From IMG/VR virus record IMGVR_UViG_3300013099_000608, positions 1 through 24,678 of that record: DNA of 24,678 nucleotides. The stretch is one strand, 5' to 3'. Below are positions 29-20,955 of the stretch, piece by piece. The notes below the pieces were generated by a model. The model was not told the DNA's origin. It did not search any database and was given only the letters and a program-made list of their open reading frames with translations. The translations under genes were made by a program, and so were the position numbers. How positions within the stretch are numbered: position 1 is the stretch's first letter; every line of letters starts with the position of its first letter. The DNA comes from a virus.

Positions 29-406
29 ATGGGACACAGACAGAGCGAGACACAGGTGAAGTCGAGCTTCACCACGGATGAGCACGGGAATCCGACGGGT
101 GGAGTGACGACGATGGCTGCTCCGGGGATTGCTCCGGGTTCGGTTTCACCGAATGAGACTGCCATCGTCATCTACTATCAGGACGGCATCGTTGGTGACA
201 GTGGGCAGAACGGGGCGTTCGTTGAGGACGTGATTGAGGCTGCACGTCAGCGCCTCATGTTCTTCAACAGCAACCCGAAGTTCCGGTGCCGAGAGAACTC
301 TCTCGCGATCACCAAGCTCGAGGAAGCACTCCAGTGGTTGGATTGGCGAACACGTCAGCGTGACCTTCAGGGTGTCGAGAACACCTACGAGACTCATACC
401 GAGTAG
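29..406 (+). CDS. Acb2/Tad1 hairpin-domain-like protein (putative cyclic-nucleotide sponge)
   Basis: This is a 125-residue soluble protein with no signal peptide or membrane segment. Residues 1-60 are polar and probably disordered. The C-terminal half carries a helical region ending in a motif of the form ENSLAITKLEEALQWL followed by RTRQRDLQGVE (about residues 91-118). That pattern, a basic residue, S-L-A-x-T/I-K-L-E-E-A, an aromatic helix and a R-rich G-V-E tail, is what I remember of the Acb2/Tad1 hairpin family in phages. Characterised members bind cyclic oligonucleotides or other nucleotide signals and so block CBASS or Thoeris defence. The family assignment is by memory of the motif. 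Function as a sponge is inference, since many family members are untested. The start has a good ribosome site, and a terminator follows the stop, so this is the last gene of its transcript. Confidence 0.6.
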   Translation: MGHRQSETQVKSSFTTDEHGNPTGGVTTMAAPGIAPGSVSPNETAIVIYYQDGIVGDSGQNGAFVEDVIEAARQRLMFFNSNPKFRCRENSLAITKLEEALQWLDWRTRQRDLQGVENTYETHTE

Positions 407-458: not shown

Positions 459-487
459 GGACTCCCTTCACGGGGAGTCCGTCTTTT
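459..487 (+). terminator. Rho-independent terminator after the Acb2-like gene
   Basis: An 8-bp perfect stem (459-466 with 473-480, GGACTCCC/GGGAGTCC) with a 6-base loop is followed by GTCTTTT. A smaller 5-bp hairpin (438-452) lies just before it. The last T of the tract is also the first base of the tRNA. Confidence 0.7.
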
Positions 488-558
488 CGGGGGTCGTCTA
501 TGTGGCAAGACCCGTGGTTTTGGACCACGCAAGCGGGGTTCGAGTCCCTGTCCCCGAG
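487..558 (+). tRNA. tRNA-Gln (anticodon UUG)
   Basis: A complete 72-base cloverleaf can be folded by hand. The acceptor stem is 487-493 with 551-557 (seven pairs, one G-T). The D stem is 496-499 with 508-511. The anticodon stem 513-517/525-529 encloses the loop TTTTGGA, giving anticodon TTG. The variable region is 530-533. The T stem 534-538/546-550 encloses TTCGAGT. The weak U1-A72 pair and G73 discriminator are the usual tRNA-Gln identity elements. The CCA end is not encoded. Positions 8-9 are TC rather than the usual TA, and position 37 is G. It would decode CAA, and CAG by wobble. Confidence 0.9.
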
Positions 559-612
559 CTTTCCTTCCTTCGTGTGATAGGGTTGTGATATCCGATCCCG
601 AAGGAGTACTCA

Positions 613-732
613 ATGGGTGCCAAGATTGAAGGCGGCAAGCGGACCAGTTCGTCTGGTGTCGCAACTGCCCTGAACACGGCCGGACAGCGCACGTCGTCCG
701 GCAAGATCAAGCTCGAAGGCGGTAAGTGCTGA
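613..732 (+). CDS. Small hypothetical protein (39 aa)
   Basis: A short reading frame begins at an ATG 7 bases after a strong AAGGAG (601-606). That signal is the main reason to believe it. The product is 39 residues, basic and Gly/Ser/Lys-rich, and carries an approximate internal repeat: KIEGGKRTSSSG near the start and TSSGKIKLEGGK near the end. No family is recognised. Its stop (TGA 730-732) overlaps the next ATG by one base, so the two small genes are probably translated together just ahead of the terminase gene. It could be a small virion or regulatory peptide; the sequence does not say which. Confidence 0.55.
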   Translation: MGAKIEGGKRTSSSGVATALNTAGQRTSSGKIKLEGGKC

Positions 733-911
733 TGGATGTTCTCGTCAACCTTCCAGGGTCTGCCGTCACGGAGAACCCGAACCCTGCTCGCTCGAGCTAT
801 CACCGACCTGAAGTCAAGAGAGCTGTCGAAGCTCTCGACCCGTACGTCTCTGACAAGACCCGGGCCCGTGATGCGAAGACGCCACCACGCTCCAAGGGTG
901 GCCCTGCCTAG
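732..911 (+). CDS. Small hypothetical protein (59 aa)
   Basis: This 59-residue frame starts at the ATG formed by the TGATG junction with the preceding tiny gene. A weak GAAGGCGG lies 10-17 bases upstream. The product is Pro-, Arg- and Lys-rich (21 charged residues or so) with a short helical centre (PEVKRAVEALDPYV) and a basic tail. It has no recognisable domain. It ends 11 bases before the terminase start. This is the place where a small terminase gene often lies, but the protein is too short and lacks the coiled-coil oligomerisation and N-terminal HTH expected of one. Evidence for coding is its position, coupling and open frame; it is less certain than its neighbours. Confidence 0.45.
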   Translation: MDVLVNLPGSAVTENPNPARSSYHRPEVKRAVEALDPYVSDKTRARDAKTPPRSKGGPA

Positions 912-922
912 CAGGACAGCCC

Positions 923-3496
923 ATGGTCGATCACTCAACGATGGATTGGGGAGAGAAGGAATGCCCTGAATGTGGCGTCTCCTTCTCTCCGACCCATCCC
1001 AGCCGTATTCGTTGCCTTGACTGCCGTCCACCCGTTCCGTCAGGGAAAGCTGCTCCGTTGGAAAAGGTCTGCGTCAAGTGTGACGCCGACTTCACCGCGT
1101 CCGGCACCGGAGCCCATTACCGGAAGTACTGCGAGCCCTGTCAGGAGATCCGGCTCGTGGAGATCGCTGCTGAGAAGGTCGTCAAGGACGAAGCCACCCA
1201 GCGCAGACGTGAGCGTGAGCCCACCAAGGACTGGACGCCCATGGACGGGCTCAAGGATGTCGGCAACCGGATCTATGAGGGCGATTGCGTCAAGTGCGGC
1301 ACCCACTGGATGGGCAAGGGGACATCCGGCGCCAACCGGAAGTTCTGCTACGAGTGCAAGCCACTCCGCGACCACGGCGCCAGACAGCAGCGCGAGCGTC
1401 CATACTGCCAGCTCGAAGGGTGCCAGAAGCAGATCCCGAAGAGCAGGGGCGTGAACGCCAAGTACTGCACCGAGCAGCACCGCAAGAAGTCCGGCAAGCT
1501 CAGATATGCGGCGAAGCTGCAAGCGAAGAAGGACGGTGAGAACACCGTCAACATGTTCCGTAATCCGAACACGACCAGCCCTGTCAAGCAGGAGCGTCAG
1601 GGTCATGTGATGAAGGTCATCAAGGACGACCCGATAAAGCTCGAGATGCTGCTCAACGGCGACATCACGGCGAGCGCTCTCGCCATCCAGCTCGATGTGT
1701 CCGTGCCGGCTGTGACCAGGGCGATGCATGCCATCCTTGCCGAGATGGCTGTCGAGAACGAACGGGCCAAGTGGAAACAGTCGTCACGGGTCAAGGCGAT
1801 GCTGCCCAAGGCCAAGATGGACAGGGCTCGTGTGCTCGGGCTCTCCGGCCAGACCGACACCACCGAGTACACCCTGCTCATCGAAGAGCTCGTGCGTGCG
1901 TACTCAGTCTTCTCTCGCCGGTACTTCAACCTTGAAGGCAAGCGCCCCATCATCAAGGAGTTCCATCTCAGATGGATTCGCTCCATCATCGAAGCCTACG
2001 CAACAGGGGGGAAACAACTCATCCTGTCGCCCCCGCGCCACGGGAAGTCCGAGACCCTGATCCGGTTCGTCATCTGGCTCGTCATGATGGACCCGAACAT
2101 CCGTATCGGTTGGTTCTGCGCTTCGAGAGACATCGCCGAACTGATGCTCGGTTCGGTGAAGGACATCCTCGAGAGCGATGAAACGCTCATCAGGGACGTG
2201 CTGCCACCTGGTGAGATATTCGACCCTGGGCTGAAGTCGAACAAGCCATGGTCGAAGAAAGAGATCAAGGTCGCCCAGCAGACCCACATCGGTGCCAAGT
2301 CATCGACCATGATCGCCATTGGGCGCACATCGAAGTTCCTGTCAAGGGACATGGATCTCGTCATCATCGACGACCTTGAAGACTTCGACTCGACCCGTGA
2401 AGAAGGTCAGCGACTCTATTCCAAGAACAAGCTCGCAGAGATCGGGACACGCAAGGTCGAAGAGACGGCCGAAGTCTACATCGGCTCACGCCAGCACCCT
2501 GATGACATCCCGAACTCGATTCTCGATCTCGAAGACACCATCCTGCAATGGAAGATAATCGTCGACTCGGCCCACGACGAAGAGTGCGGTGAAGACCCTG
2601 ACGACCTGACCGTCCATACCGACTGCATGCTGTTCCCCGAAGTCCGGTCGTACCGGTATCTGATGGAGAAGAAGCTCGAGATGGAAACGCTCGGTCTCGG
2701 ACACATGTACCCGTTGCGCTACCTGAACAACCCGATACCCGAAGATGGGCAGGTCTTCGATGTGAAGCTCATCCGTGACGTCGGCCTGAACCGTGAGCGC
2801 GGTCTCGGGCTCGAAGGTCTGCCGTTGGGCTGGCTCGTCGGTGGGCTCGACCCGTCGGCGCGCGGTATCCAGGCATCGTACCTGTGGCACTACCGTGCAG
2901 CCGACACGCCCCAAAAGGTGAAGCTGTCGATGGTCGACATCGACACCCTTCAGTCCGGTGGCTCGCAGGGTGCGCTCAAGATAATCCGTGAGTGGTACCA
3001 CACATACGGGCTCGAGCTCTGGTACTTCGAGACGAACTCCACGCAGGTTGACTGGTTCGACACCATCAAGCGTGAGCTACGGACACGCCCGTGCCACATC
3101 TGCGAAGAGACCCACCCTGAGATCGTCATCAAGGATCACAACACCGGTAAGAACAAGAAGGACGCTGAGCTGGGCATCTCGTCCATGGCTCCGCTGTTCC
3201 ACTCAGGCTCTGTTGACCTGCCGTTCGGAACCAACGAAGCTCGGCGCAAGACCAACATGCTGCTGCGCCAGCTCGAGCTGTGGACAACCGACGGGGTCGT
3301 CAGGAAGAAAGCCAAGACCGACATCAAGATGGCGATGTGGTTCCCGTGGGCAGGCAAGATCCAGAGCTTCACCAAAGAGCAGCGTGCCACACAAGTTGAA
3401 GTCGCGGTGGAGTCGTCGTACCCTATGTTCGGCGATGTGGGTGGTCATGCACCCTGGGGTGTGACAGATGCGAACGTTTACGGACTAGGGAGTTGA
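923..3496 (+). CDS. terL: Terminase large subunit with N-terminal zinc modules and HTH
   Basis: This 857-residue protein is the ATP-driven DNA packaging motor and nuclease. The ATPase shows a Walker A SPPRHGKS at residues 369-376 and a Walker B ending VIIDD with acidic residues 483-484. The RNase H-like nuclease has D643 (GGLDPS), E703 (WYFETNS) and D765 (SGSVDLP) as likely metal ligands. The N-terminal 190 residues are unusual: four zinc-binding modules at C14/C17/C31/C34, C50/C53/C70/C73, C122/C125/C142/C145 and C162/C167/C182/H186. A putative helix-turn-helix follows at about 239-273 (KLEMLLNGDITASALAIQLD onwards). Typical large terminases are 450-600 residues and lack these parts. ATG 923 is preferred to ATG 941 because neither has a strong ribosome site and 923 lies nearer the previous stop. 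It acts at the portal during head filling. Confidence 0.95.
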   Translation: MVDHSTMDWGEKECPECGVSFSPTHPSRIRCLDCRPPVPSGKAAPLEKVCVKCDADFTASGTGAHYRKYCEPCQEIRLVEIAAEKVVKDEATQRRREREPTKDWTPMDGLKDVGNRIYEGDCVKCGTHWMGKGTSGANRKFCYECKPLRDHGARQQRERPYCQLEGCQKQIPKSRGVNAKYCTEQHRKKSGKLRYAAKLQAKKDGENTVNMFRNPNTTSPVKQERQGHVMKVIKDDPIKLEMLLNGDITASALAIQLDVSVPAVTRAMHAILAEMAVENERAKWKQSSRVKAMLPKAKMDRARVLGLSGQTDTTEYTLLIEELVRAYSVFSRRYFNLEGKRPIIKEFHLRWIRSIIEAYATGGKQLILSPPRHGKSETLIRFVIWLVMMDPNIRIGWFCASRDIAELMLGSVKDILESDETLIRDVLPPGEIFDPGLKSNKPWSKKEIKVAQQTHIGAKSSTMIAIGRTSKFLSRDMDLVIIDDLEDFDSTREEGQRLYSKNKLAEIGTRKVEETAEVYIGSRQHPDDIPNSILDLEDTILQWKIIVDSAHDEECGEDPDDLTVHTDCMLFPEVRSYRYLMEKKLEMETLGLGHMYPLRYLNNPIPEDGQVFDVKLIRDVGLNRERGLGLEGLPLGWLVGGLDPSARGIQASYLWHYRAADTPQKVKLSMVDIDTLQSGGSQGALKIIREWYHTYGLELWYFETNSTQVDWFDTIKRELRTRPCHICEETHPEIVIKDHNTGKNKKDAELGISSMAPLFHSGSVDLPFGTNEARRKTNMLLRQLELWTTDGVVRKKAKTDIKMAMWFPWAGKIQSFTKEQRATQVEVAVESSYPMFGDVGGHAPWGVTDANVYGLGS

Positions 3497-3497
3497 C

Positions 3498-4040
3498 ATG
3501 CAGCTGAAGGATATAGACGTTCACCACCTTCACATCGGTGACGTTTCGGTGGACTTCCACAACAACATGGAATGTGACAACCGCGGTGACGACCGCATCA
3601 TCTTCTTCTCGGCTGCCGGTCGGGAAGACTTCCTGAAGATCAAGGCGAAGTTGGACAAGGAAGCAGCGAAGAGAGTCGCCAACTACCCCGACACGGCCAC
3701 CTTCCAGGGTCAGCCGATCTATCTCGTCAAGACCCCACTCGACGAAGATGAAGAAGCGTGGCTCTCGTTCTTCCTGGATAAGAACGACACGGAAGCACGC
3801 TTCGATGAAGACATCATGGAGTTCCTGATGGAGCTCGGTGAGCAGGAAGCCCGTGACCTGTTCCTGCTCATGTGGATGGACAACGCTGGACACTGCGGTA
3901 CCTGCGGAGCGCTCGAGGGCAAGTGTCTCAACTCGACCTGCACGCGGACACGGGTAACCAACAAGCTCTTCCTGTTCAGCGGTGGCGTGGTCGCTGATGG
4001 CTGGAAGGCTGACCAGATGAAGGCGATGGAACGGGTATGA
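3498..4040 (+). CDS. Hypothetical zinc-binding protein between terminase and portal
   Basis: This 180-residue acidic protein starts one base after the terminase stop, with AGGGAG 3487-3492 upstream. A C-x2-C-x6-C-x4-C cluster at residues 133, 136, 143 and 148 looks like a small zinc ribbon. The N-terminal part alternates hydrophobic and charged residues (predicted strands), and the middle (about 80-128) is helical and strongly acidic. No family is recognised. Its stop overlaps the portal start in an ATGA junction, so its translation is tied to that of the portal. Position suggests a role in packaging or head assembly, but nothing in the sequence proves it. Confidence 0.85.
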   Translation: MQLKDIDVHHLHIGDVSVDFHNNMECDNRGDDRIIFFSAAGREDFLKIKAKLDKEAAKRVANYPDTATFQGQPIYLVKTPLDEDEEAWLSFFLDKNDTEARFDEDIMEFLMELGEQEARDLFLLMWMDNAGHCGTCGALEGKCLNSTCTRTRVTNKLFLFSGGVVADGWKADQMKAMERV

Positions 4041-7372: not shown

Positions 7373-7795
7373 TTGACAACGCGACAACACGGCGGTAACA
7401 GGCCACCACAACGGCCGGCTGCGGTATCAACACCGCAGTCCGGTCGACGAACAGACGGCGGGCCAGGGGCGAAGCAGCCCATACGGGTACCGGCTGGTGG
7501 TGAATACGGAGCTCGGAAGGCAGCCGAAGCGCAACAGGGCGCCGCGCCTATGGCGTCTGGTGGGCCGGGCGCGCTGGGTCAAGGGGCTTCTGGCGGTTCC
7601 CCTGGCCCAGCAGCCCCCACGCAGGACATGTTCCGGCCTTCGGAAGTCCCAGGGCAGTCGATAGGTGGCCCAGTCCCGGGTGGCCCCGGGCAGATGATGA
7701 AGGAAGACCCGCGCATGCTCCTGCGCGAGCTCTACAAGAAGTTCCCGACGCCGGCCATCGCGGCCCTACTGAAGCACAGTGGCGCCAATGGCTAA
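7373..7795 (+). CDS. Gly/Pro/Gln-rich low-complexity protein with C-terminal helix
   Basis: This 140-residue protein begins with TTG. Residues 1-105 are rich in Gly, Pro, Gln, Ala and Arg and must be largely disordered. The last 30 residues form an amphipathic helical region (PRMLLRELYKKFPTPAIAAL). Its end overlaps the giant gene by 8 bases. I recall similar linkers with a short C-terminal helix next to portal genes, where they may tether or chaperone virion components. That comparison is from memory and no domain is recognised. The frame is real because the coding region continues into a coupled gene and its composition is far from random. Confidence 0.7.
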   Translation: MTTRQHGGNRPPQRPAAVSTPQSGRRTDGGPGAKQPIRVPAGGEYGARKAAEAQQGAAPMASGGPGALGQGASGGSPGPAAPTQDMFRPSEVPGQSIGGPVPGGPGQMMKEDPRMLLRELYKKFPTPAIAALLKHSGANG

Positions 7796-10700
7796 TATCG
7801 GCTTTTCTGATATCGAATCAGAGCGCACGGCGATCAACGAGAACACGGGTCGCTATCGGGCGTCAGCTGTATTCGCGACCCTGTCGACTCCGACGCTCGC
7901 CATCAACGTATCTGCTGCTGCGAGCCTGTACCCGAATCTCCCACCATCTCTAGTGCTGTCTGGTGCTGTCGCGGGCATGGACCCACTCAACCCCATGTGG
8001 AAGGATCTGGACACTCAGGAGCGCGCTCGCCGCGAGCAGGAGTACTCCAACTACGACTTCAACCCATTGAGCTACGCAGCCGATGTGGTGCAAGGCACCT
8101 ACGGGATCTCGGTGGCAGCAGTGCGCGGTGGGATGATCGCCTTCGACACGATATGGGAAGAAGGCATCTCTCACCCATTGCGTACGGGTGTGCTGCTCTA
8201 CCAGGACGACGATCAGGACATGAACTGGGGCTCGGCGTGGGCCGAAGCGTCTCCATCGTCTGGCGTGCGTGGTCTCGGACAGTTCTTCGGTGACCCGTTC
8301 GGGAACGTGGCGTCAGCAGCTGCGAACTACATGAACCTGTTCACGCCGTTCTCTGACCCGTTCGAAGCATCCACGGAGTCGAGAGTCAATCTTGGTTCTG
8401 GCTACTTCGCCAACTCGGACATCCTTGGTGCTGACGACCGACGAGTACAGGTGCTCATAGACCAGGGCTGGGACGAAGCCGAAGCCATGAAGGCTGTGAC
8501 CGGTGAGGTCTACGGGACGCCGGTCACCCAACTGTTCCGCGAAGGCGCTGACGCTGTCCATATCACGGGCAGGAACGGTGGCGTCTCAGGAGTCTCCCCA
8601 GGGCGTCTTGCTGCTATAGCGTTCACTGAGCCGGGCACTCAGCCATTCAATCTCCTATCGGGGACGATGGATCTCGGTGCTCAGATTTTCCTTGACCCGT
8701 CCAACCTTGCCACGGCAGGGCTCTCCAAGGCTCGCCTTGCATCGAAGGGGCTGCGAACCTTCGAGAACTCGAGCGGTCTCGTCAACGGCATACGCCGAAC
8801 GGTGCTTCAGCAGGATGTGAATAAGGCGCTCAATACCGGCATCGGCCGTGGTGCTCTCAAGTTCCTGTCGGACACCGACGACCTTGCGCTCATCGACTCG
8901 ATCCTTTCGCCGGCAACGAGAACCGGACAGACGTCACCGGAACTTCTCCGACAGGTGGCTGCCACGAACGATGTCGACGAGATGTACAAACTGGTCCACA
9001 ACGCTGTCTCCGGTGAAGGCGCTGAGATCAACAAGAAGTTCTGGAAGACATCCATGTTCGGGCAAGCCCTCGACTCCCCAGCGTCGATGACGGGCAGACA
9101 GGTGAGCGGTGCAAACCTACGAGCTCGTTCCCGTGTCCTTCTCAACCGGAGAGAGTCCGGCCTCGTCGTCGTGAATCGTGAAGTCGACGACATCGTCCAG
9201 AGTGCGATGCCCGACTACGGTGGTTTCCGTCCATCGTTCCGCGCACGCAGGATGGATTCGTCCATCATCTACGACGCTGCGACAGGGCGACTCGGTCGTC
9301 GTGCGTCTGGCAGAAATGCTCGAGCAACGTCACGGCTGTTCTCTCAAATGTCCGGTGAACGCATCGACATCTCGAACATTGGTGCCGGTTTCACTCAGGT
9401 GCGACGACTCGCTCGCTCGCTCGACCTGACACCGGAAGAGACACAGAAGGCGTTGGAGAGATGGGTCGAACTGGGCGACGACAACGTGAACGGTGCCCTT
9501 GCTGTCGTCGAAGGTATGATGGGCAGCTATCGCAAGAAGCTCTACAACGCTGGCGTCTCTGAAGAAGTCGTTGACAGCATGACAGCCATCTACAAGAACC
9601 AGGACGAGATGCGCCGGTACTTCGTTGATGAAGCTGCGAACCCGCAAGATCCCGGAGTGTTCACGATGCTGCTCGGCAACGGTGAATCCGTGCCGGTGCC
9701 CTTGGCTCACATCGTATCGGAGATGGCCGGAACCTTCATTCCGGTTCCGGGCGACCCACGCCAGATTCGCAGGATGACCGACTTCATCAAGCGCTCCGAT
9801 GGCGTGTTGAACCAGCTCAGACTGGGGAAAGGCGATCCGTCGAAGGGCTCCATCTGGTACAACAAGCAGTTCCAGGACAGGATGGGGCTGCGCCTTGCCG
9901 ACAACTTCATGAGTATCTGGAAGCCAGCGATCCTTCTGCGCCCAGCGTGGACTATCCGTGTTGTCGGAGAAGAGCAGGCCCGTCTCGCGGCAGCAGGGCT
10001 GTCCGAGTTCAACCACCCGTTCCGTGCCATGGTCGTCTCGATGACAGACAAGAACCTGAAGTTGGGGATGACCACACGCAAGAAGCTCCTTGACTCGGAC
10101 GTGTACGGAGATTCGCTTTCGCTCGCCACGGACTATCAGAACGCCATGTCTCGCCGTGGTGGGACATGGTTCGACTCCCCGGGTGGATACGGCGGTGAGC
10201 GCTGGATCAAGGTCGAGATGCAGGACAAGAACTACGACAAGTGGTGGTTCCGCGAGCTCAACCAGCTTCAGTCAGACAGAACGTCGTCAGCCGTGGCTAA
10301 GGCCATGGTCGACCCGGGCGATGCCCGTGGGCTCGATGCCGTCAAGGAGTCGTTCTTCGACGGGGACTTGGCGTCTCAGCGTCTCGAGTTGATGGGTTCA
10401 GCGAGGTCCCCGCGGCACAAGTCTCTGAACACTCGCGCTGGCTCTGATGCTTACATCGAGTCCGTGTACGCACGTCTGCACCTGAAGACGGGTGGGCGCT
10501 ACGAGACCCTGAGAGACGACGGATACTGGTACAACGACCTTGGCGAGCGTCTGCGTGCTGCCGACGCTGCCGATCAGGGCGTTCTTCGGCAGGCGAACTC
10601 GCTCGTTCCTAAAGGCAAGGGTACCGGACAGGGCACGCGGATACAGACAAGAAGCCTTGACCAACACCGCAGTGCGCTGTCTCGCTCAGGGCTGCCCGAT

Positions 10701-13700
10701 GCTGATGTCGACCGCAAGATGAACTACCTAAGCTCGAGGGGCACCGTTGACGACGCATCGTTCGTCAAGCTGGACCCAGACGCTCGCACCGTACTGATCG
10801 AAGAAGGCAGCCTTCTGGGTGACGACATTGTGGCCGAAGCTCGCACGGTTCAGTTCCGTGTCACCGAGAGTGGGGAGACCGAGCTGCTTGAAGCTGTGAG
10901 TTCTGGGAACCTTCGTGGCGTCAACTTCAGCGGAGAGATCAACGCCAGCATCGAACGACAGGCGACCAAGGCGCTGAAGGGGTTCCGTGATGATGGGCTG
11001 CGTGCGCCACAGGCTGTCAAGGGTGTCGACGAGTCTGATGTAGGGAAGCTCGACAACGCCATGAACAAGGGTTTCGACCTGTTCATGGGGAAGCCAACGA
11101 ACAGGTTCTCCCGTTCGCCAGCGTTCACACGCTCGTACTGGAACACCGTCACGGACCTTGCCGATCAGGGGCTCATAGACACGAACACCGTGAACAAGCT
11201 CCAGCGCCTAATGAGCTCTTCCAAGAAGAGCGTCACAACAGAAGCGACGAGGAAGGCTCTGCGCTACTCGGAACGCATGGACGAGCAGGTCAGGACAACA
11301 GAGCGCCTGTACGCAGATCTCAACGATGAGCTCGTTGGAGCCCCAGCCCAGGTGAAGGAAGCCCTCGAGCCGACCGTGAAAAGGCTCAAGTCTCTGATGG
11401 AAGGCGACTCCTACGATGTCGGTCGCTACAACCGCATCATCCAGGATATGGGTACTGATCTCAAGACGCTCGACGCCGACCTTGCTGAAGGGCTTGAAAG
11501 GGCTCGGGCGCTCAAGAAGGCCCAAGCTGCTGAAAGTGCTCAGGTCAGTGCTGCTGAGAGAGCCGATGTCGACAAGCTGATAAACCAGCTTGAGAGCCAT
11601 CGTGACGATATTGGGCGCAGGCTCAAGTCGATGGAAGACGAGTTCGACGCAGAAGCCGTCGAAGACCTCGACATTCTCTACGGAGCCATGGACGAGATGC
11701 CCGACACCTATGTCGACGGGCTCGACCCGTCGCCCCACATGGACGGCTCCCCGTCCGATGTCGAAGACGCTATCCGTGCCGAGATGAGAGCTCAGCAAGA
11801 ATCTGCGCTCGAGCCCATTCCAACCGACCTTGACGAACAGATCGAGAATCTGGCGACCCGTGTCGGCCAAGACGAAGACTTCGTCCGTAGGGGTATCGAA
11901 TCTGAAGAGCCTGTGCGTCGAGCTGCTGGTGATTACGAGTACCCGAACGGTGACTCCATCGAGCGCACCGGCAAGAACTGGACGGTCACGGCGCAGAAGG
12001 GTGACTTCGAAGAGTCGTACCCAACACTGAAGGCAGCGAGAGCTGCATACAGGGAAGCACGGCTGGGAGACCAGGCGTCGATGGCTGCTGATATCCCCAA
12101 GGACCAGCAACGACTCGCAGAGTTCGCGAGGCGGCGGTCTGAAGGCGAAGCCGTCCCCGAAGCTGTCAGGATGGGCCAACCGGTCGGTGAGCTCGAGAAG
12201 ATCGCCGACGGTGCTTATGTCGTCAAGACAGAGCGTGGCACCTTCCGTATCGAGAAGACCGGCGACAGGTGGCGCATCACGGAGCCAGACACTCCCCGCG
12301 TCGAACAGCTCCAGGTCGAAAGCAAGAGAGCAGCGGACATCGAGGTCGAACCTGAGCGCATGATGCCTGGTGCGGCCCGTTCGGCTGACTACGCTGCCGG
12401 CAAGGCGAAGATGGAACGCTTCACCGACGCTGAGAACGAAGAGACGTTCAGGTCGGCCAAGGCTGCTCGAGAGAGTCTTCAGGAACGCATCGCTCCCGAC
12501 ATCTCGAAGATCGAAGAAGGAAAGCTGAGCCCTGAGCAGATCAGGAAGCTCAAGGACGACTTCGATGCCACTGACGACGAGATCGCTCGTCTGGCGAACC
12601 AGGAATCCGAAGCGTCATCCATGCGTGTTGAAGTGGAAGACGACAAGGCTGTGGCGCACGCCTTCAACGAGATGCTGCCGAACCGTCCGAACCAGTTGCT
12701 CTCGATTGAAGAAGTCGACCGCATCGCCAAGGCAGCAGCGCTCACCGAGACGCAAGAGCTGCTGTATGACCTGTCGAGAAGGTCGAACTTCTCAGACATG
12801 TTCCGTATCGTGATGCCGTTCGCTGAAGCGTGGTTCGAGATCATCTCCACATGGTCAAGGCTGGTGCAGGGGAACCCTGCAACACTCCAGCGCTTCCAGC
12901 AGGCATACAAGGGTCTCCAGGAAGATGTGCAGTTCGGAGAAGGTGCATTCACCGTTGAAGGTCATGACGGCTCTGGGTTCTTCTATGTGGACCCACGCAC
13001 GAAGCAGGAGATGTTCGCCATCCCCCACCTGACGTCGATGCTTCAGGGCAACGAGATTGCTGGTGGGCTCATCGGCGGTGCTGCTGGTGCCGGAATCGGT
13101 GGATTGCTCGGTGGCGGTCTTCCAGGTGCTATCAAGGGCGCTGCCGTCGGAGCTGTCGGTGGTGTCGCTCTAGCGAAGCAGGAGATCCTTGCCGAAGGGG
13201 AATCGGTCGACCTTGGGTTCAACGTCCAGGGTGTGAACATGGCTGCCGGCTCTGCGATCCCGGGTATCGGACCACTCGCGGCTGTTCCCATCTCGTGGGT
13301 GCTCTCCAAGTTCGACGGCGAATCGGCCGAGATGGCTGAAGACCTGCTCCTTCCGTTCGGCGAACCGAACGTGTCGTCTGTCGGTGACTTCGTCGACTCG
13401 CTCATCCCTTCATGGGCGAACAAGTTCTTGATGGCTGCTGACAAAGGCTTAACACCAGACCAGCAGCGTATCCGTGCCAACACGACCATCGAAGTCGCTG
13501 GCATGATGGTCCGGCGCGGTGAAGGGTCGTTCTCCACACCAGAAGAGATGAAAGAAACGCTTGCTCAGGCGTCCAAGAAGTCAGGGTGGCTGTACGCCAT
13601 CCGTGGGCTCGCTGCTGCTGCTGGCCCTACGGCTCCATCGTTCACCTACAACACGGAAGACAAGAACGGCTCGTGGTTCTTCACTTCCACGATGGCTAAT

Positions 13701-14507
13701 CAGTGGAATGAAACGCTGAAGAAGCACGATGGTGACGAGCCGTCGGCCTTCGACGAGTTCACAGGGATGTACGGCCTGATGCCACAGACCTTCATGGTTG
13801 GCAAGACGCAGGCTCTCACGAACGCCCCACTGACGAAGAACGCTTACTCGTGGAAGAAGGAGAACGAAGAGATCTATCAGAACTTCCCGGGCACTGCCTA
13901 TCTCCTGAACCCGACCGATCTCGCCAACGACGAGTTCGATTACGACGCCTACATTGCGACCTTGAAAGAGGGCACGAGAGTGTCTTTCACTCCTGAGCAG
14001 TGGGCTCAGAAGTCGAACTCGCTGGCTGCGAACGTCATCATGGAGCGGTTCCGAAAGTCGGCCAGCGCCTTCCTTGCAGAGTCGCCGCACAGATCGGTCG
14101 ATCAGCAGAAGGTGAGCGAACAGCTCTACTCGCTCCAGATGGCTCTCATGAAGGACTACCCAGGGTATAACCGAGAGATAACAGGCACGGCGAACCCGAT
14201 GTCACCGGAAGAGAAGCTGGACGAGATTTCTAGATGGACACCAGAGATGAAGAGCTCTGCCATCGGTACTGCTGTCGTCTCCTACCTTGCTGCTCGCGAT
14301 AACGCTGAAGCCATCTCGTTGAGGTCGGGCAACAGCAAGGACTGGTGGAAGATTTCCAACGAGCCCGAAGCTGTGCAGATCCGTGACGAACTCATCGCCA
14401 TTGCTACGATGCTGAAGGTGAAAGAGCCCAGCTTCATCTCTGCATGGACGACGCTGTTCTCGAGCGACATGAGGGACCATATTGAAATGAGGAGTCAGAA
14501 TGGGTGA
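7788..14507 (+). CDS. Giant internal/ejection-type virion protein (2239 aa)
   Basis: This is by far the largest gene in the window. Start ATG 7788 is chosen; GTG 7779, three codons upstream, is possible, and neither has a strong ribosome site. Visible parts: an N-terminal region with short hydrophobic helices (1-330); a motif IWKPAILLRPAWTIRVVGEE at about 711-730; a long charged, probably coiled-coil region at about 1142-1305; a duplicated small beta motif near 1384 and 1480; a conserved-looking segment LLYDLSRRSNFSDMFRIVMP with FAEAWFEIISTW after it near 1655-1690; and a glycine zipper (GGLIGGAAGAGIGG onwards, about 1757-1795) able to insert into membrane. Large proteins with such zippers are DNA-ejection or internal virion proteins in podoviruses (compare T7 gp16 in role, not in sequence). 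No protease, transglycosylase or polymerase motif is evident. It lies between portal and capsid genes. A tape-measure role is less likely given this position and composition. Confidence 0.85.
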   Translation: MANIGFSDIESERTAINENTGRYRASAVFATLSTPTLAINVSAAASLYPNLPPSLVLSGAVAGMDPLNPMWKDLDTQERARREQEYSNYDFNPLSYAADVVQGTYGISVAAVRGGMIAFDTIWEEGISHPLRTGVLLYQDDDQDMNWGSAWAEASPSSGVRGLGQFFGDPFGNVASAAANYMNLFTPFSDPFEASTESRVNLGSGYFANSDILGADDRRVQVLIDQGWDEAEAMKAVTGEVYGTPVTQLFREGADAVHITGRNGGVSGVSPGRLAAIAFTEPGTQPFNLLSGTMDLGAQIFLDPSNLATAGLSKARLASKGLRTFENSSGLVNGIRRTVLQQDVNKALNTGIGRGALKFLSDTDDLALIDSILSPATRTGQTSPELLRQVAATNDVDEMYKLVHNAVSGEGAEINKKFWKTSMFGQALDSPASMTGRQVSGANLRARSRVLLNRRESGLVVVNREVDDIVQSAMPDYGGFRPSFRARRMDSSIIYDAATGRLGRRASGRNARATSRLFSQMSGERIDISNIGAGFTQVRRLARSLDLTPEETQKALERWVELGDDNVNGALAVVEGMMGSYRKKLYNAGVSEEVVDSMTAIYKNQDEMRRYFVDEAANPQDPGVFTMLLGNGESVPVPLAHIVSEMAGTFIPVPGDPRQIRRMTDFIKRSDGVLNQLRLGKGDPSKGSIWYNKQFQDRMGLRLADNFMSIWKPAILLRPAWTIRVVGEEQARLAAAGLSEFNHPFRAMVVSMTDKNLKLGMTTRKKLLDSDVYGDSLSLATDYQNAMSRRGGTWFDSPGGYGGERWIKVEMQDKNYDKWWFRELNQLQSDRTSSAVAKAMVDPGDARGLDAVKESFFDGDLASQRLELMGSARSPRHKSLNTRAGSDAYIESVYARLHLKTGGRYETLRDDGYWYNDLGERLRAADAADQGVLRQANSLVPKGKGTGQGTRIQTRSLDQHRSALSRSGLPDADVDRKMNYLSSRGTVDDASFVKLDPDARTVLIEEGSLLGDDIVAEARTVQFRVTESGETELLEAVSSGNLRGVNFSGEINASIERQATKALKGFRDDGLRAPQAVKGVDESDVGKLDNAMNKGFDLFMGKPTNRFSRSPAFTRSYWNTVTDLADQGLIDTNTVNKLQRLMSSSKKSVTTEATRKALRYSERMDEQVRTTERLYADLNDELVGAPAQVKEALEPTVKRLKSLMEGDSYDVGRYNRIIQDMGTDLKTLDADLAEGLERARALKKAQAAESAQVSAAERADVDKLINQLESHRDDIGRRLKSMEDEFDAEAVEDLDILYGAMDEMPDTYVDGLDPSPHMDGSPSDVEDAIRAEMRAQQESALEPIPTDLDEQIENLATRVGQDEDFVRRGIESEEPVRRAAGDYEYPNGDSIERTGKNWTVTAQKGDFEESYPTLKAARAAYREARLGDQASMAADIPKDQQRLAEFARRRSEGEAVPEAVRMGQPVGELEKIADGAYVVKTERGTFRIEKTGDRWRITEPDTPRVEQLQVESKRAADIEVEPERMMPGAARSADYAAGKAKMERFTDAENEETFRSAKAARESLQERIAPDISKIEEGKLSPEQIRKLKDDFDATDDEIARLANQESEASSMRVEVEDDKAVAHAFNEMLPNRPNQLLSIEEVDRIAKAAALTETQELLYDLSRRSNFSDMFRIVMPFAEAWFEIISTWSRLVQGNPATLQRFQQAYKGLQEDVQFGEGAFTVEGHDGSGFFYVDPRTKQEMFAIPHLTSMLQGNEIAGGLIGGAAGAGIGGLLGGGLPGAIKGAAVGAVGGVALAKQEILAEGESVDLGFNVQGVNMAAGSAIPGIGPLAAVPISWVLSKFDGESAEMAEDLLLPFGEPNVSSVGDFVDSLIPSWANKFLMAADKGLTPDQQRIRANTTIEVAGMMVRRGEGSFSTPEEMKETLAQASKKSGWLYAIRGLAAAAGPTAPSFTYNTEDKNGSWFFTSTMANQWNETLKKHDGDEPSAFDEFTGMYGLMPQTFMVGKTQALTNAPLTKNAYSWKKENEEIYQNFPGTAYLLNPTDLANDEFDYDAYIATLKEGTRVSFTPEQWAQKSNSLAANVIMERFRKSASAFLAESPHRSVDQQKVSEQLYSLQMALMKDYPGYNREITGTANPMSPEEKLDEISRWTPEMKSSAIGTAVVSYLAARDNAEAISLRSGNSKDWWKISNEPEAVQIRDELIAIATMLKVKEPSFISAWTTLFSSDMRDHIEMRSQNG
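11938..12290 (+). repeat. Duplicated small beta motif inside the giant protein
   Basis: Two short segments about 285 bases apart encode related motifs: NGDSIERTGKNWTVTAQ (near 11943) and RGTFRIEKTGDRWRITEP (near 12234). Shared pattern is G-x-x-I-E-[RK]-T-G-x-x-W-x-[VI]-T. This suggests two copies of a small beta hairpin or WW-like fold. No nucleotide-level direct repeat is obvious, so the duplication is old. Confidence 0.5.
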
Positions 14508-19722: not shown

Positions 19723-20955
19723 ATGGCAATCGCACCGGCACCACCTTTTGGAGAGACGGGCCTAGCAGCCACAGACGTCTATCCAGCTGACGGAGTAGAC
19801 GCAGGCGCAGCAGCGTCTTCGCAGCCCGTCAACGAAGCAATGGCTTCGACGCTCAACTATCCCCAATGGCAAGGCCAGATGTACTATCTCACCCGTGAGA
19901 TCGTGCCTTGGCTGTCAGCCATCGGTGGAATGGGGAACGGCAGAACCCTTCGGACGAAGGACTTCGTCTTCCAGATCGAGCAGGGCGAAGAGTCGTCCAA
20001 CAACAACGCGCGCCCTGAGGGTTGGACCCCTGAGGACGAGCGAGTGCTCTTCGGAGCCCAGCGCGTAGGCGTGACTGAGATTCATCAGCACTCCATCGCT
20101 CTCACCTACACCCGTGATGCGGTGTCCGGCCAGATCGGTGCTGGTGGAGACGCCCGTACCGGTGCTCTCGTCCCGAACGATGGTTCCATCGTCGAAGCCG
20201 AAGGCACGCCGATGCAGAAGGCCATCAACCAGAAGCTCCGCAAGATTGCCCGTGACTTGCAGAAGACTTCCCTGTACGGAACGTACTTGAATCCAGAGAC
20301 TCAGCCGGCAGGCTCGGGGACATCTGGGTTCGGTGGAACCTACGACCCTGCGCTCGTTCGCAAGGCTCAGGGTTTCCTTGACTATCTGCTCATTGGGGCC
20401 GGTCAGACGAACCCGACACCGTTGGTCCCTGGTAGCAACATCACGGTCGCAGCGATGGACGCTGCTGCTGCTCAGGACACGGAAGACCCGTTCTTCGGTG
20501 CCAAGATCGACACGGGCGCCGGTGGCGACCTGTGGCGTGACGGACTGGATGCTCTCCTTGTTGCGCTGTTCGAAGCCGACACGGAAGCTCCGATGATGAC
20601 ACCGGTTCTCTGGATGAACGCTTCCACGAAGGTTGCGCTGTCCAAGGAGTACACCAACAACTTCGGGCTGGCCGACAGGTCGCGCTCTGTTGGTGGTGTG
20701 AACATCGAGACCATCATCACGGACTTCGGTACGTTTGGTGTGGCGCTCGACCGGTACCTGCCGAAGAACATCATCCTGCTTGCGGACATGAGCTACATCA
20801 ATCCGGTGACGCTCCCCATCCCAGGCAAGGGCGTGTTCTTCACGGAACCACTCGCCAAGACCGGTGCCTATGAACGGCTCCAGATCTACGGCGAGATCGG
20901 CTTCGAGTACGGACCACGTTCGTATCACGGCATCGTTACCGATACACCTACCTGA
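19723..20955 (+). CDS. Major capsid protein (HK97 fold, SU10-like)
   Basis: The 410-residue product starts 18 bases after the scaffold stop, behind TAGGAG (19707-19712). It has no recognisable delta domain or protease site. Features typical of SU10-type capsid proteins are visible: RTLRTKDFVFQIEQGEE (about 74-90, N-arm/E-loop area), then TEIHQHSIALTYTRDAVSG (about 117-135), then the long spine-like helix MQKAINQKLRKIARDLQKTS (about 165-184). The C-terminal A-domain contains ITDFGTFGVALDRYLPKN and ends with YERLQIYGEIGFEYGPRSYH, resembling the end of this family. Family assignment is from memory of motif order; the capsid role is firmly supported by the scaffold in front. I count 2 CAA and 15 CAG glutamine codons. 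A perfect hairpin follows the stop. Confidence 0.9.
   Translation: MAIAPAPPFGETGLAATDVYPADGVDAGAAASSQPVNEAMASTLNYPQWQGQMYYLTREIVPWLSAIGGMGNGRTLRTKDFVFQIEQGEESSNNNARPEGWTPEDERVLFGAQRVGVTEIHQHSIALTYTRDAVSGQIGAGGDARTGALVPNDGSIVEAEGTPMQKAINQKLRKIARDLQKTSLYGTYLNPETQPAGSGTSGFGGTYDPALVRKAQGFLDYLLIGAGQTNPTPLVPGSNITVAAMDAAAAQDTEDPFFGAKIDTGAGGDLWRDGLDALLVALFEADTEAPMMTPVLWMNASTKVALSKEYTNNFGLADRSRSVGGVNIETIITDFGTFGVALDRYLPKNIILLADMSYINPVTLPIPGKGVFFTEPLAKTGAYERLQIYGEIGFEYGPRSYHGIVTDTPT

Follow-up and report, generated by a model that had tools for sequence, protein, structure and literature searches.

A T7-type large terminase carrying a putative zinc-module and helix-turn-helix arm, a candidate for packaging-site recognition in an uncultivated phage

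The window analysed here (the whole IMG/VR virus record, 24,678 bases, without stated completeness) encodes a functional-looking large terminase of the T7 type, judged by homology and intact motifs, in which an arm of putative zinc modules followed by a helix-turn-helix (HTH) precedes the ATPase. In most tailed phages, packaging is the work of two proteins: the small terminase (TerS) chooses the DNA, and the large terminase (TerL) cuts and pumps it. The arm of the window protein most likely acts in cis for the motor, recognising the end or the packaging site of the phage's own genome, as TerS does elsewhere; the probability of this reading is put at about 0.45. Viral-contig scans returned about 20 near relatives with TerL identities of 49-68% and many distant ones at about 24%, which are cited below by their labels where needed.

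Terminase core and N-terminal arm

The following features were located in the ORF (amino acid numbering from its first codon).

923-3496, plus strand: large terminase (TerL), T7-type, with N-terminal Zn/HTH extension, 857 aa (phrog_38, T7 gp19 profile)
962-1024, plus strand: putative Zn module 1, CPEC-x13-CLDC, aa 14-34; among the relatives fetched, only in the window protein
1070-1141, plus strand: putative Zn module 2, CVKC-x16-CEPC, aa 50-73
1286-1357, plus strand: putative Zn module 3, CVKC-x16-CYEC, aa 122-145; counterparts in L017, L002, L003, L004 and L023
1406-1480, plus strand: putative Zn module 4, C-x4-C-x14-C-x3-H (CQLEGC..CTEQH), treble-clef-like, aa 162-186
1604-1771, plus strand: predicted HTH region, aa ~228-283; recognition helix VSVPAVTRAMHAIL
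2027-2053, plus strand: Walker A, SPPRHGKSE, aa 369-377
2360-2380, plus strand: Walker B region, VIIDDLE, aa 480-486
2843-3337, plus strand: RNase H-type nuclease domain motifs, with D643, E703, D747 and D800 invariant

The ORF is a single uninterrupted frame of 857 codons, of which positions 923-1750 encode aa 1-276. Using PHROGs, phrog_38 was matched over aa 169-826 (E = 3.4e-45). As a single sequence the protein matched NCBIfam NF033889 (termin_lrg_T7) at E = 8.6e-12, below the cut-off, and whole-protein phmmer against the PDB gave no match. A profile of 27 relatives matched T7 gp19 (4bij) at E = 8.2e-13 and the TerL of 8dgc at E = 3.8e-10. Walker A, Walker B and the coupling segment GSRQHPDD are conserved in the family and the four acidic nuclease residues are invariant across the 27-sequence alignment; both motor and nuclease therefore look active. 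The Walker A/B, coupling and nuclease motifs are shared with T7-type TerLs (T7 gp19; PHROG 38; NF033889), whereas the clade of the window protein adds ~285 residues, holding one to four zinc modules and an HTH, ahead of the ATPase. The preliminary description of a large terminase fused to four zinc modules and an HTH was thus correct in coordinates and architecture.

Fifteen of the 20 cysteines lie within aa 1-200. The four-module Cys/His array exceeds chance: shuffling aa 1-200 20,000 times never produced four modules and produced three in five cases, and 5,000 shuffles of the whole protein never gave more than two. All four four-ligand modules that had been proposed, three CxxC...CxxC ribbons and one C-x4-C...C-x3-H finger, are present. 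Each contains two Cys/His knuckles, conserved in relatives, as in zinc ribbons and treble clefs, and the modules are predicted to bind zinc; the AlphaFold model itself carries no metal. Module 4 is the best-modelled part of the arm (pLDDT 91-97) and is present in every relative with an intact N-terminus.

For the putative HTH, AlphaFold placed helices at residues 228-235, 237-245, 250-257 and 261-283, with a pLDDT of about 90 for the block. A profile of 14 arms matched the HTH of the MarR-family repressor AdcR (E = 0.0014) and, more weakly, TrfB/KorA (E = 0.04) and other zinc-responsive MarR regulators. Both results support the HTH that had been suspected ahead of the ATPase, and they point to a DNA-recognition HTH of the kind expected of a fused small terminase; the arm would accordingly bind DNA. 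Foldseek of the arm against the PDB returned only small, non-significant HTH and zinc-knuckle matches. Because the single-sequence Pfam scores, both for the HTH (HTH_11, E = 0.02-0.06) and for all zinc families, were below the curated cut-offs, the fold assignments are supported and not certain.

The terL upstream region and the search for a small terminase

Upstream of terL, the window holds the following.

29-406, plus strand: 125-aa ORF, homologue of Tad1 (Thoeris anti-defence 1); PDB Tad1 8kbb, E = 1.5e-13
487-559, plus strand: tRNA-Gln (anticodon TTG), lying after the Tad1-like ORF and before the terL operon
574-584, plus strand: GTGATAGGGTT element, a single copy in the window, ahead of the terL operon
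613-732, plus strand: 39-aa ORF, conserved (68-78%) in L017 and G007
732-911, plus strand: 59-aa ORF, with counterparts in L017 and G007 at 66-71%; no match to any family and no recognisable HTH

The 125-aa ORF shares 50% identity over 74 aa with Tad1 of Bacillus phage SBSphiJ7 and was rejected as a TerS, being a Tad1 homologue. It lies near the left end of a phage whose host is probably an actinobacterium. A tRNA-Gln (TTG) is likewise found just upstream of terL in G007 (L100 14049-14123, minus strand).

The motif GTGWTAGGGTT recurs in L003, L006/L018, L023 and L093, where it directly precedes terL or a small ORF ahead of terL. The actinobacterial -10 box reads TANNNT. The TAGGGT of the element would fit such a box, with a leaderless or short-leader start. 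In these four contig groups the element and the start of terL, or of the 43-aa ORF preceding it, are 6-8 nt apart, so that a terS ahead of them would not fit in that transcript; in L003, L006/L018 and L023 no gene separates the element from terL. The motif had also been considered as a packaging-site signal and was dropped, since its distance to the start codon better fits a -10 box with a short or no leader. No candidate packaging-site motif was identified.

All 11 near-clade contigs in which the N-terminus of terL is complete (4-48 kb long) stop 165-1243 nt ahead of terL, a pattern suggestive of a fixed genome end. In L006, 4.6 copies of a 57-bp unit are arrayed in tandem at positions 77-335, near the contig end and about 570 nt before terL, possibly representing origin or packaging-related repeats; an array of this type is absent from the window.

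No TerS family was matched by the window proteins scanned, the window being a fragment, or by the arm itself. When 37 proteins of G007, a 47.6-kb contig not certified complete, were compared with PHROGs, no TerS was present among the best 25 of 44 families, nor was one found when nine proteins otherwise without family were checked singly at E values up to 1. The TerS families PF11123, PF03592, PF20901, PF05119 and PF16677 had no match in G000, G001, G002 or G007, and no TerS-like gene adjoining terL on either side was recognised in relatives. As a control, the annotated TerS of Pam1 and of Piluca were both missed by the same five Pfam families. TerS sequences show little conservation and are easily overlooked by in silico searches (PMC6854486). 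For these two reasons the absence of a TerS is only suggestive. The original statement that no small terminase is in view holds in that none was recognised in the window, in G007 or immediately upstream of terL in relatives; absence as such is not established, given a fragmentary window and searches that missed both control proteins. The TerS of Piluca and Pam1, the TerLs of which are distant relatives, were also considered as ancestors of the fused HTH and dropped, neither resembling the arm on inspection.

The same difficulty of recognition favours a serious if tentative contender, in which the arm is an accessory DNA-binding tether that raises the affinity of TerL for DNA or the genome end, and a separate, highly diverged TerS is encoded elsewhere, or by the 59-aa or another small ORF. 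Several G007 proteins lack any family match and could accommodate such a TerS, and the two ORFs nearest to terL, of 39 and 59 codons as first reported, are conserved upstream of terL in three genomes. Against a TerS in this position, the 59-aa ORF was not detected in L003, L006/L018, L022 and L093, each with 400-1000 nt upstream of terL (the 39-aa ORF was likewise not found in the other relatives holding that much sequence), and nothing TerS-like was recognised beside terL.

Variation of the arm and comparison with other proteins

The arm was compared with those of ten other distinct intact proteins, all from uncultivated viruses. The last zinc module and the HTH are kept in 10 of 10, and the ligand positions of the last module are conserved although the arms are only 28-53% identical. 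The number of modules varies: four in the window, three in L017 and L002, two plus an orphan half in L003 (read from the alignment), two in L004, L021, L022 and L023, and one in L018/L006, L093 and G007. The idea that four zinc modules are needed was not supported, since relatives carry one to four. A small separate Cys-rich ORF stands directly before terL in G007 (51 aa) and L093 (43 aa). At the level of sequence comparison, the architecture, its conservation and its variability are all established.

L003 and L004 have a 3.1-kb stretch in common with 98.7% DNA identity. From the recognition helix of the HTH onward the identity is 100%. Ahead of it, blocks of 30 bases agree at 18-27 positions around the beginning of the HTH and at 5-15 positions (ungapped) in the zinc part. 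This pattern looks like an exchange of the zinc part. It was not counted as proof of recombination, because the names of the contigs point to related samples and a chimeric assembly could also have produced the breakpoint. As the two contigs differ in the zinc part and share an identical recognition helix, the specificity of the HTH need not follow that of the zinc modules.

The zinc modules are peculiar to the clade of the window. When the arm by itself was used as a query against isolate phages, nothing was matched even at E = 1, so no isolate in the collection searched carries the arm by sequence. Among prokaryotes, scanned as one genome per species for 84,980 species, no relatives were found. 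The nearest isolates by TerL are Streptomyces podophages of the subfamily Beephvirinae (Immanuel3, Abafar), at 25% identity over 54% of the query. In these phages no gene precedes terL, which lies ~0.65-0.68 kb from the end of the genome, and no TerS is annotated in Immanuel3. Their TerL has an HTH at the same place; it differs from the window protein in lacking zinc modules and in an extension of only ~115 aa.

The HTH of these distant TerLs resembles TerS weakly. It matched the Sf6_terminase profile at E = 0.012 and 0.055, and the structures of PaP3, Sf6 and phBC6A51 were among its 30 weak Foldseek matches. In the Immanuel3 genome, the five Pfam TerS families gave a single match, to the Sf6 TerS profile, and it falls inside the terL N-terminus (nt 793-948, E = 0.004, below the cut-off). 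The TerS of Sf6, PaP3 and phBC6A51 share HTH-based packaging recognition with the proposed arm but are separate, ring-forming proteins without zinc modules, and the HTH of the window is closer to the MarR/KorA type. The HTHs of the window clade and of the distant TerLs do not align by hhalign; instead of a single shared TerS-derived origin, there may have been two separate fusions at the same place. Such a coincidence, if real, would speak for a function in recognising DNA.

G007 was also compared with the window at the genome level. The major capsid protein (19723-20955 in the window) is 90% identical in the two, against 67% for the portal and only about 35-37% for TerL, a sign of strong mosaicism. 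In G007 the late genes run away from the terL end and replication-type genes lie at the opposite end, a layout resembled by that of Streptomyces phage Immanuel3 (genome of 46.1 kb; gene 1 is terL, at nt 679). The window further encodes a 2242-aa protein (7779-14507, plus strand) without significant PHROG match; G007 has a counterpart of 2757 aa, and in Immanuel3 a 1648-aa protein is encoded at a similar place. Directly after terL, a 180-aa ORF (3498-4040, plus strand) ends in a C-terminal Cys cluster, CGTCGALEGKC..C, and has a partial match in G007 (41% over 92 aa) and no match in L017.

The rapid change in module number would also suit an origin of the zinc modules in mobile HNH-type nucleases, with a regulatory or defence-related function, such as masking TerL from host sensors, in place of packaging-site choice. 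The best structural match of the modelled arm in BFVD is a Microbacterium phage HNH endonuclease (E = 1.5e-4); phage HNH endonucleases contain a C-x2/4-C ... KYC-x2/3-C/H module like that of the arm. The G007 counterpart of module 4 weakly matches both DUF2116, a 'probable treble clef', and HNH-endonuclease PHROGs (E = 0.001-0.006). Terminases are known targets of Avs sensors, and 8dgc, listed only as terminase in the profile search, is presumably an Avs3-TerL complex. This account is considered improbable. The BFVD match is a long alignment of low TM score, driven by small zinc knuckles; family searches of the arm found no HNH catalytic domain, the window protein differing from these nucleases in this respect and in its fusion to TerL; and the last zinc module and the HTH are retained as a pair in every case. 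That the zinc region is merely decaying, non-functional sequence carried along by an upstream start is very improbable: it could explain the orphan half-module of L003 where L002 has a whole one, but not the ligands of the last module maintained across such divergent arms, nor the promoter-like element of L003, L006/L018 and L023, which fits a start that includes the zinc modules.

A recognition arm in cis

In the preferred reading, recognition of the genome end in cis, the first ~285 residues of the window protein form an added DNA-binding arm, composed of a zinc-module array with a constant last module, followed by the HTH. The arm would dock the ATPase and nuclease on the concatemer, close to the genome end that lies directly upstream of terL; cutting by the nuclease would follow, and translocation would begin. 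The zinc array, which is gained, lost and apparently exchanged between relatives, may tune or strengthen the contact with DNA.

Recognition in cis is supported by a four-module array beyond chance, by an HTH found with both profile and model, by intact ATPase and nuclease motifs, and by the retention of the last module and HTH in 10 of 10 proteins. Further support comes from the lack of room for terS after the promoter-like element, the contig ends upstream of terL, the lack of a TerS family match in G000, G001, G002 and G007, and the presence in distant TerLs of a correspondingly placed, weakly TerS-like HTH. Herpesviruses offer a precedent by analogy only. Their TerS-equivalents pUL28 and pUL56 contain zinc fingers, and pUL56 binds pac DNA (PMC9611059); these are separate subunits and a functional parallel, not relatives. 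The reading is weakened by the control TerS that were missed, the HTHs that could not be aligned, the non-significant PDB Foldseek result, the failure to find a candidate packaging-site motif and the conserved 59-aa ORF preceding terL in three genomes.

From the same observations we infer that genome-end recognition may proceed independently of a TerS. A one-protein terminase in the full sense, in which the zinc/HTH arm reads the packaging site in cis, no TerS is present in the genome and the zinc array is exchanged as a specificity module, is more tentative still: plausible but unproven.

No paper describing such fused TerLs was found in the open-access literature, and the paper on Abafar mentions only a terminase large subunit (PMC11536984); the fusion of an HTH to TerL is apparently a broader theme that has gone unremarked. 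If recognition is indeed built into TerL together with variable zinc modules, the division of labour between TerS and TerL would not be universal, and site choice would become open to study on one polypeptide. Streptomyces podophages, along with many related uncultivated phages, have an N-terminal HTH in their TerL, and its role could be tested in the cultivable Beephvirinae.
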